Positions 20,431-23,136 of a stretch of DNA of 64,000 nucleotides are shown here, piece after piece. This DNA is from Chloroflexi bacterium bin125. GTDB lineage: Bacteria; Chloroflexota; Dehalococcoidia; Bin125. Location: positions 62,001 through 126,000 of the forward strand of contig MPNM01000002.1 of the NCBI GenBank assembly GCA_002239025.1, written 5' to 3'. A program made the position numbers and the translations under genes. Position 1 is the stretch's first letter. Each line of letters opens with the position of its first letter. The notes beneath the pieces are model-generated. The model was not told the origin of the DNA and searched no databases. It was given only the letters and a program-made list of their open reading frames with translations.

Positions 20431-20505
20431 TGGTCCCCCCGGGAGGAATCGAACCTCCGCGCACGGTTTAGGAAACCGCCGCTCTATCCCCTGAGCTACG
20501 GGGGG
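20431..20505 (-). tRNA. tRNA-Arg (CCT)
   Basis: Acceptor CCCCCCG/CGGGGGG, anticodon loop TTCCTAA with CCT (reads AGG), T-arm GGAGG TTCGATT CCTCC, discriminator A and encoded CCA (20431-20433). It is a lone tRNA gene next to the toxin-antitoxin remnants. Confidence 0.95.
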
Positions 20506-20600: not shown

Positions 20601-20855
20601 ATGCCGATGTACGAGTACTACTGTCGACCCTGCAACGAGAAATTCGTCAAGCTGCGACCGATGAGCGCCGCTGCCGAGCCGTTTGAGCACGCTTGCGGCA
20701 CAGTGGCGCAGAAAGTACTGACTGCGGCCATGGTCTCGGTCGCCGGCGAGTTCGCCGACATGGAGGCGGCAGAAGCGATGCCGACAGGCGGCGGCTGCGC
20801 TTGCGGTCGTGGTTCCTGCGGCTGCGGCAGTGGCGGTATGGGCGCGTTGAACTAA
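20601..20855 (+). CDS. FmdB-family zinc-ribbon protein
   Basis: An 84-residue protein beginning MPMYEYYCRPCNEKF, the standard FmdB/PF09723 opening with Cys8 and Cys11. The second zinc knuckle is reduced to one clear Cys (HACG, Cys32), where family members usually have CPxC. Residues from about 62 form a Gly/Cys-rich tail (GGGCACGRGSCGCG) with five cysteines, unusual in position though seen in some members. Function unknown; often called a putative regulatory protein. GGAG eight bases before ATG. Probably cotranscribed with the next gene. Confidence 0.85.
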   Translation: MPMYEYYCRPCNEKFVKLRPMSAAAEPFEHACGTVAQKVLTAAMVSVAGEFADMEAAEAMPTGGGCACGRGSCGCGSGGMGALN

Positions 20856-20916: not shown

Positions 20917-22416
20917 ATGAACCTCAGCCCCAGGGTCCTGGTCGTGGGTGCGCTGCTCACAACCGCTGTCATCGCGGCAGTGTTGTTCAGCGTTGGCGCT
21001 CAACGCCATTTCGCTGCCTCCAGCAATCACTCCGACGGTGAAATCGACGTTCGAGTGCAGGCCAGACAAACGGAAGGTGGTCGGGTCGAGGTTCGGGCGC
21101 AGACCAGCATCGGCGAGCGCGAGTGGATGACACACACGCCAGATTTGCGGTTCCTCACGGCCGATGCTGAATTCGGCAGATGGTATTCGAGCAGCCCGTT
21201 GACAGTGAGTGTGCCCGCTCCGGCGCCTGAAGTCTCTGATGAAGCTGCGTACACACAGTTTTTCGTTGAAGAGGCGATTGACTACTACCAGCGCCACGGC
21301 CGCGATGTGATGCTCGCGTTCTACAACTCGCCGGAGAGCGTCGATGGTCAGTGGTACATGTTCATCTTCGACGCGGATGACATCCTCGTCGCTCACGAAA
21401 ACCCCGAGCTGGTAGGTCTGACCGACGCCGAGGTCAACGGTCCTGATGGATATCCGGCCGGTCGGATGGTCGTCGCGGCAGCAAGCGAAGCTGGCTCGTG
21501 GGTTGATTATCAGTTCAACAATCCTACGACCGGCGAAGCCGAGATCAAGCACTCGTGGATCGTGCGTCACGACGGGCTGATCTTCGGCTCGGGTTGGTAC
21601 GAGGATGCGCCGTCGAAGGAGCATGCTCCGGGCGCGTACACACAGTCGTATGTGGAACGTGCGCTTGAGATGTATCGCGTGTTGGGACGCGAGGCGACGT
21701 TTGAGTATTACAACTCCACGGAGAGCATTGATGGCGAGTGGTACCTGTTCATCCACCAGGACGACGGCACGCGCCTGGTCAACGGCGCTCAGGCCGACCG
21801 ACCCGGCTGGCTGGGCAGCAACCTGCACGGCTCGGGCGTGGATGTGACCGGATACGACTACGTTGAAGACACGCTGGCGATCGATCCTGATGGCTGGATT
21901 TCATACGTCTTCCCCAATCCCGATGCGGAGCTTCGCTACCAGCGCAAACACAGCTGGCTCCTGCGCCGCGACGGAATGCTGTTTGGCTCAGGTTGGTACG
22001 ACCGCAACTACGATCTCGCCGAGGAAGACCCGGCTGGCTATTCGCGAGCCCTCGTGCAAACGGCGATTGATCTGTATGACTCCGAGGGTCGGCAAGCCAT
22101 GCTTGACCGCTACAACTCGGCGGATAGCGCCGATGGCGAGTGGTACGTGTTCGTCATTGATGGGGAGGGCGAGTTCATTGCTCATCCCACGCGACCAGAC
22201 CTGGTTGGGGAGCTGTTGCAGGATCGGGGAACTGATGTCACCGGCTTTGACTTTGGCTCGGCGTTCCTGGCCATCACCGAGAACGGATGGGTCAGCTATG
22301 TGTTCGGCAACCCAGATTCGGGCCGAGACGAACAGAAGCACACCTGGCTAGTCAGGCATGACGGTCTACTCTTTGGCTCGGGATGGTACGAGCCGGGCGC
22401 GTATGAGGCACCCTGA
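20917..22416 (+). CDS. Membrane-anchored triple Cache-like repeat protein
   Basis: A 499-residue protein with one N-terminal membrane helix (about 5-28), a beta-rich linker (42-100, including FGRWYSSSP), then three tandem repeats of about 118 residues at 112-229, 241-361 and 375-492. Each repeat runs: YxxxxVxxAIxxY..GR, YNSxxSxDGEWYxFxxD, a variable loop, a GWxSYVFxNP strand, then KHxWxxRHDGLxFGSGWY. This matches single-Cache (sCache_2-like) ligand-binding folds, normally found once in chemoreceptors or histidine kinases. Here no cytoplasmic signalling domain follows, so it may be a periplasmic or cell-surface binder rather than a classical sensor. ATG 20917 is preferred over an upstream TTG. 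Ligand unknown. Confidence 0.8.
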   Translation: MNLSPRVLVVGALLTTAVIAAVLFSVGAQRHFAASSNHSDGEIDVRVQARQTEGGRVEVRAQTSIGEREWMTHTPDLRFLTADAEFGRWYSSSPLTVSVPAPAPEVSDEAAYTQFFVEEAIDYYQRHGRDVMLAFYNSPESVDGQWYMFIFDADDILVAHENPELVGLTDAEVNGPDGYPAGRMVVAAASEAGSWVDYQFNNPTTGEAEIKHSWIVRHDGLIFGSGWYEDAPSKEHAPGAYTQSYVERALEMYRVLGREATFEYYNSTESIDGEWYLFIHQDDGTRLVNGAQADRPGWLGSNLHGSGVDVTGYDYVEDTLAIDPDGWISYVFPNPDAELRYQRKHSWLLRRDGMLFGSGWYDRNYDLAEEDPAGYSRALVQTAIDLYDSEGRQAMLDRYNSADSADGEWYVFVIDGEGEFIAHPTRPDLVGELLQDRGTDVTGFDFGSAFLAITENGWVSYVFGNPDSGRDEQKHTWLVRHDGLLFGSGWYEPGAYEAP

Positions 22417-22419
22417 TAC

Positions 22420-23136
22420 CTAGCTGACGTCGAGTTGTTCACGCCGACGTTCTCGCCATAGGTAGGCGGCTGAGATGCCGCCTGCCGCGAGGACGAAGAT
22501 CAGTGTGACTCCGCCGATGAGCAGCGTGGTGTCGAAGAAGAAGCGTTGGGGGAAGAGCTGGATCAGCCCGTCTCGCGAGCTGAGCTGCCAGAGATCGTTG
22601 GTGAAGAACAACAGATGGAAGTTGCGGAACGCGGCGTCAAAGCCGGTGATGCCGATGACGCCGAGAACGACGACCAGTAGTGCCACGATGCCACAGGCAG
22701 TCAGGACCGATCTCGCCACTGACGATGCGGCTCGCTTGCCCGATCGCACCAGAGTGATTGCTACGAACGCGATGATGAATCCGAGCGCGGCCCAACCGGC
22801 ATCGAACGTGCGCGCCATCAGCCGCTTGACGTCGATCATGTGGAGGATCTCTCGCTCGCTGTAGAAGGACGCTCCGGCCACGCTGACATCGAGCCGGTCT
22901 TCGTCGTTGAGCAGGTAGTCGCGAGTCTCCTGCGCCACCCTGAGCACCTCGTCCTGGGGCAAGCCGGTGCGACCCGTGGCGTCGTAGCGCTCGAATCCAC
23001 GTTCCCACCATGAGGCTGAGGATGTGGCGTAGCGGACGGTGAAGGCGATGGGAAGCGTGAACAGCGCGAGCGCGAGCGCGACCTCGGCAGCGGTGCGTAA
23101 CAACCTGAGCACTACGAGTTGGGCGATAGGATTCAT
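22420..23136 (-). CDS. DUF1461 (TIGR01906) integral membrane protein
   Basis: A 238-residue membrane protein with four predicted helices: one near the N-terminus (about 14-34), two central (about 114-132 and 145-167) and one near the C-terminus (about 203-226). The extracytoplasmic segment after helix 1 and the NFHLLFFTNDLWQL / LIQLFPQRFFFD stretch are the diagnostic parts of the family, found in Firmicutes, Actinobacteria and Chloroflexota. The related Lit proteins act in lipoprotein N-terminal remodelling, so a lipid-modifying role is possible but unproven. Convergent with the Cache-like gene with a 3-bp gap. Confidence 0.8.
   Translation of the reverse strand: MNPIAQLVVLRLLRTAAEVALALALFTLPIAFTVRYATSSASWWERGFERYDATGRTGLPQDEVLRVAQETRDYLLNDEDRLDVSVAGASFYSEREILHMIDVKRLMARTFDAGWAALGFIIAFVAITLVRSGKRAASSVARSVLTACGIVALLVVVLGVIGITGFDAAFRNFHLLFFTNDLWQLSSRDGLIQLFPQRFFFDTTLLIGGVTLIFVLAAGGISAAYLWRERRREQLDVS

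Follow-up and report, generated by a model that had tools for sequence, protein, structure and literature searches.

Three tandem sCache_2 domains without a signalling output domain in a protein of a sponge-derived Chloroflexi bacterium

Cache domains have been surveyed as the sensory modules of signal-transduction proteins, SMP_2 being set apart as the sole Cache family without known output domains (Upadhyay et al., PMC4822843). In Table 1 of that survey 1,921 of 2,243 sCache_2 proteins fall into signalling classes, so that some unassigned sCache_2 proteins already existed (PMC4822843). The sCache_2 sensors closest to the protein described here are PscD (5g4y), Adeh_3718 (4k08) and 2qhk, in which one domain per chain precedes HAMP and MCP. 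The carboxylate of propionate is held in PscD by Tyr90, His103, Tyr143 and Lys156, between Trp92 and Trp145; the C2/C3 carboxylate pockets of PscD and Adeh_3718 are identical, three of these residues show high conservation among single-Cache proteins, and the authors infer carboxylate specificity for that family (PMC5062169). A double form, dCache_2, is described as a duplication of sCache_2 (PMC4822843).

The genome of bin125 comes from the sponge Aplysina aerophoba and was reported as Chloroflexi, with 66 contigs, an N50 of 125,355 and an estimated size of 4 Mb (Slaby et al., PMC5649159); the assembly used here has 66 contigs and 3,681,665 bases. The window, the whole stretch of DNA analysed, is 64,000 nucleotides long, and the features discussed below are these:

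20431-20505 (-): tRNA-Arg (anticodon CCT), just upstream of the FmdB gene
20601..20855 (+): FmdB-family zinc ribbon protein (TIGR02605, E 3.4e-10), upstream of the poly-Cache gene
20917..22416 (+): poly-Cache protein CDS, ATG start, 499 aa plus stop
20929..21006 (+): N-terminal hydrophobic helix, residues 5-30 (AlphaFold helix of low pLDDT; sequence)
21031..21216 (+): N-module, residues 39-100, a beta-rich module of ~55 aa (copies in the genome; model pLDDT 72)
21241..21606 (+): Cache 1, residues 109-230 (Pfam, AlphaFold); pocket Y147, H160, Y198, K211; aromatics F149, F200
21628..22002 (+): Cache 2, residues 238-362 (Pfam, AlphaFold); Y276, Y330 and K344 retained, His position replaced
22030..22392 (+): Cache 3, residues 372-492 (Pfam, AlphaFold); pocket Y410, H423, Y461, K474
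22420..23136 (-): Lit, lipoprotein intramolecular transacylase family (PF07314, E 3.4e-28), next gene downstream

The window protein consists of three tandem sCache_2 domains behind an N-terminal helix and has no output domain. Its top Pfam match is dCache_2 (E 1.5e-17, three stretches, 64.1 bits against a cut-off of 26.5), followed by sCache_2 (PF17200; E 3e-15, 56.9 bits against a curated cut-off of 25), and sequence matches in the PDB agree with the sCache_2 identity. The three Caches are 38-46% identical to one another. An AlphaFold model, computed from the protein and 18 aligned relatives, has a mean pLDDT of 84 and exceeds 90 across most of the three Caches, each showing the long N-terminal helix and PAS-like sheet of the Cache fold. 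Superposition with VIA-align gave Z 16.2 on Adeh_3718 (rmsd 3.3, 125 residues aligned), Z 15.8 on 2qhk and Z 15.6 on PscD (rmsd 2.6, 122 residues aligned). PpsR and HIF dimers, the top Foldseek matches, were dropped, being multi-domain PAS proteins that superpose only loosely (rmsd 17-25). The first-pass annotation had read the chain as one helix and three repeats of ~118 residues (112-229, 241-361, 375-492) resembling sCache_2; the model bears this out with slightly wider boundaries. A separate module at about residues 39-100 had been overlooked; the model shows residues 41-99 as beta-rich, with low confidence.

Seven residues past Cache 3 the chain ends, as had been claimed, and the next gene lies on the opposite strand. 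Pfam gave no match in the window protein to a histidine kinase, MCP or cyclase output domain, nor to a solute-binding protein, and the modelled fold is that of a Cache rather than of a periplasmic binding protein. The protein thus shares with PscD, Adeh_3718 and 2qhk the fold (Z about 16), the PF17200 assignment and a Tyr/His/Tyr/Lys site, but differs in having several domains in tandem (three here, one to eight in the family) with no output. It differs from dCache_2, which is double, in that the arrays are open-ended, each unit matches alone and no output domain follows. SMP_2, a single proteobacterial domain related to DUF2222, resembles it in lacking known outputs, but the window protein gives no SMP_2 match.

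Of 14 further genomes from the genus, 13 have an orthologue, which contains two, three or four Caches where complete. Among 393 genomes of the class 46 have related repeats, and a profile search found them in 35 of 400 genomes drawn from the phylum. A scan of named genomes returned 75 loci, mostly from many families of Chloroflexota (Caldilineae, Dehalococcoidia, Tepidiformia) and two in Acidimicrobiia; the contig scan used a closer repeat set, the whole-repeat alignment A1 being too divergent. Horizontal transfer between phyla was considered as well; the tree of terminal repeats, which has too few columns to resolve its backbone, gives no decisive placement of its two Acidimicrobiia rows. Plasmid-borne spread was considered and set aside, the plasmid matches being distant single Caches of 26-36% identity. 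Nearly all chains stop a few residues after the last Cache, a few having disordered tails, and no fusion to a kinase, MCP or cyclase was seen in about 100 related ORFs (Pfam on nine relatives, the remainder judged by ORF length and sequence). Neither of the two outcomes named beforehand as refuting the Cache reading was seen: the fold is Cache, and no orthologue carries a signalling domain. One relative has a 5'-nucleotidase domain instead; in this Tepidiformaceae protein of 1477 aa (L135, 4089-8519, +) a 5'-nucleotidase C-terminal domain precedes the three Caches, and a hydrophobic segment lies at the C-terminus.

A chain of this sort might be a decayed receptor, that is, a Cache sensor stripped of its output domain and drifting, and Upadhyay et al. 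proposed a cut-off origin of that kind for SMP_2 (PMC4822843). Against this, the repeats of orthologues are 43-96% identical across species with their pocket residues intact, Cache 2 being the best conserved (85%); most members of the genus have a full-length ORF, and some other lineages have expanded to several array genes per genome. We regard decay as highly improbable.

Membrane attachment is kept across the family while its means change. In the window protein, residues 5-30 read as a signal anchor or signal peptide without a lipobox Cys, whereas the front ends of relatives often have a lipobox, or else a TM helix, collagen-like or FN3 segments, and Pro-rich or heptad-like spacers. A collagen-like, Gly-Pro-rich stalk joins the lipobox to the Cache array at L089/L159, L096, L097 and L098. 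At L106, L108, L109 and L128, in Caldilineaceae, three to five consecutive genes each encode a single-Cache lipoprotein of ~160 aa, like an array split into genes. Two other arrays, L164 (6975-9026, +) and L161 (7797-10403, +), have repeats up to 98-100% identical, which suggests, as far as their sequences go, recent tandem duplication within them.

Twenty-four of the 75 named loci come from sponge MAG series, 19 of them (jk18x) from Ircinia (PMC9531527) and five from A. aerophoba bins, and a further 11 (RHO, IRC, COS, APA) appear to fit the sponge host names in PMC8163846. The other 40, among them the SB06xx, OY/OX/CAT*, CO36405 and Plut series, have no traced host. All traceable hosts are therefore sponges, in a set of loci that is phylogenetically clustered and has no background rate against which enrichment could be read.

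Stalked arrays with changing copy number resemble adhesins, so an adhesin or surface scaffold stays a real alternative: a rod built of repeats on a stalk would bind host matrix or neighbouring cells, and the pocket would either read carboxylates of host polymers or act solely as fold core. Copy numbers from one to eight, anchoring combined with collagen-like, FN3 and coiled spacers, the sponge hosts, and the near-identical repeats of some arrays, as in adhesin repeat arrays, are all consistent with it, and FN3 and cadherin adhesion genes are enriched in sponge MAGs (PMC8163846). Other features of the family argue against it. Within one protein of the window genus the repeats share only 40-50% identity, yet they are conserved by position across species, unlike a homogenised spacer; stalkless single-Cache lipoproteins are common in Caldilineaceae; and the residues of the small-molecule site, for which a mere scaffold would have no need, are among the most conserved positions. 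On balance we consider an adhesin rather unlikely.

The PscD residues were mapped onto the repeats through the repeat profile. In the alignment of 354 unique family repeats the set Tyr, His, Tyr, Lys is complete in 264, with conservation by position of 94%, 80%, 94% and 95%. Within the window, Caches 1 and 3 have all four residues and all three Caches have the two tyrosines and the lysine; in Cache 2 the histidine is lost in a loop with an insertion, where its exact equivalent is ambiguous. The tryptophan sandwich is absent, Phe standing at both positions, Trp92 and Trp145 of PscD, in all three repeats, and the ligand may for this reason differ in size, from C2-C3 to somewhat larger. Since TlpB retains Tyr90 of the site and binds urea (PMC5062169), identity of residues is no proof of ligand. 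The conserved site nevertheless suggests that the Caches of the family probably bind small carboxylates at the cell surface. The proposal that each repeat may bind something different has partial support. In ten orthologues of the genus the two tyrosines and the lysine are the same in 30 of 30 repeats, but the His position and those of the flanking Phe residues vary repeat by repeat.

The N-module links the protein to solute binding from another side. It occurs at 29 places in the window genome. A profile built from 25 copies finds 32 there and between 16 and 33 in most of the genus genomes that are complete; of 197 genomes in the class, only 20 have any. At least 11 of its carriers in the window genome are type-1 periplasmic binding proteins, and solute-binding proteins make up most of the carriers that could be named; one of the binding proteins adjoins a complete Liv-type ABC transporter, with two ATPases and two permeases of the branched-chain type. 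The anchor and N-module are thus common to the poly-Cache protein and to ABC solute-binding proteins (Peripla_BP_4, Peripla_BP_6) of the same genome, but the binding domain of the latter is not a Cache, and the poly-Cache protein has neither the periplasmic-binding-protein fold nor an adjacent transporter. A front end that is also that of the genome's own solute-binding proteins supports an extracytoplasmic binding role without proving it. The module by itself is not indicative of solute binding, since a Cu/Zn superoxide dismutase, an AhpC/TSA protein and an RCC1-repeat protein of the window genome carry it too. Single or doubled and limited by lineage (window 21031-21216; G000 loci L002-L008 and L047-L066; alignment A5), with no Pfam match in the window protein and no PDB match at E under 0.001, it is a candidate for an undescribed domain in its own right.

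The window gene lies among FmdB, Lit, MazG and UvrD-like genes, and the order FmdB, poly-Cache, Lit (on the opposite strand), MazG is kept at every genus locus that has both array and flanks. The likely operon with FmdB that had been put forward holds only as gene order within the genus. In G001, of the same genus, and in G016 and G019, of other genera of the family, FmdB, Lit and MazG stand together without an intervening Cache gene; the arrays that G016 and G019 do have lie elsewhere. Since the FmdB-Lit adjacency persists in relatives without the Cache gene, the link to FmdB is positional, and a functional partnership finds no support. Clustering of array neighbours by blastp gave only lineage-bound synteny, with no partner gene recurring across lineages. 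No transporter gene adjoins the window gene. Near the Caldilineaceae single-Cache clusters, genes of oligopeptide ABC type lie a few kb away on the other strand; they were assigned by reading the sequence and carry little weight.

The same neighbours bear on a role as co-receptor, in which the ligand-loaded protein would dock on a separate histidine kinase or membrane receptor and signal in trans. Cache domains are normally sensory (PMC4822843), and solute-binding proteins can stimulate transmembrane receptors (PMC9602780). However, no kinase recurs beside the arrays among the clustered neighbours, a response-regulator cluster lies near them at five loci only, and the window genome has no second sCache_2 protein. 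The first-pass annotation had entertained a co-receptor; its chemotaxis version is unlikely, no MCP domain being present in the genome, and signalling in trans as a whole seems to us improbable.

We therefore favour, with a probability of roughly 0.55 for the explanation as a whole, a membrane-anchored, outward-facing, multivalent binder of small monocarboxylates. The helix would fix the protein to the outside of a monoderm-type envelope, and each Cache would capture a carboxylate; the array would raise the local concentration of ligand or, in the manner of an ABC solute-binding protein, hand it to an uptake system, with no signalling involved. An extracellular ligand-trapping or scaffold protein had been foreseen from the start, and extracytoplasmic binding is still the best reading, given the Cache fold and the related ORFs free of outputs. 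That the protein binds carboxylates and does not signal is likely; the further step, that binding serves capture or uptake, has in our estimate slightly less than an even chance. Delivery to a transporter would be the weakest step of the explanation. With no adjoining transporter and no recurring partner gene, hand-over to an uptake system is without support from context. Cache domains also lack the two hinged lobes of ABC solute-binding proteins, so that it is not obvious how they would pass a ligand to a permease.

The Cache domain itself is known, and it is its tandem arrangement that departs from the published signalling generalisation (PMC4822843). Within the part of the literature covered, we found no description of Cache arrays in sponge symbionts or of an anchored Cache family without output, and a large family of such proteins with one to eight copies is apparently undescribed. 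We tentatively suggest that these proteins could form a widespread non-signalling class of Cache proteins whose sensory domain has become a modular surface array of one to eight units for ligand capture, tied to bacterial life in sponges, with array length and pocket variants matched to the organic acids that the host supplies. If this is true, a large family of such arrays, anchored, intact in their ligand sites and lacking an output, would clearly break the rule by reusing a sensor domain for binding itself, and their distribution in sponge symbionts would provide a concrete and testable link between symbiont surface proteins and small acids derived from the host.
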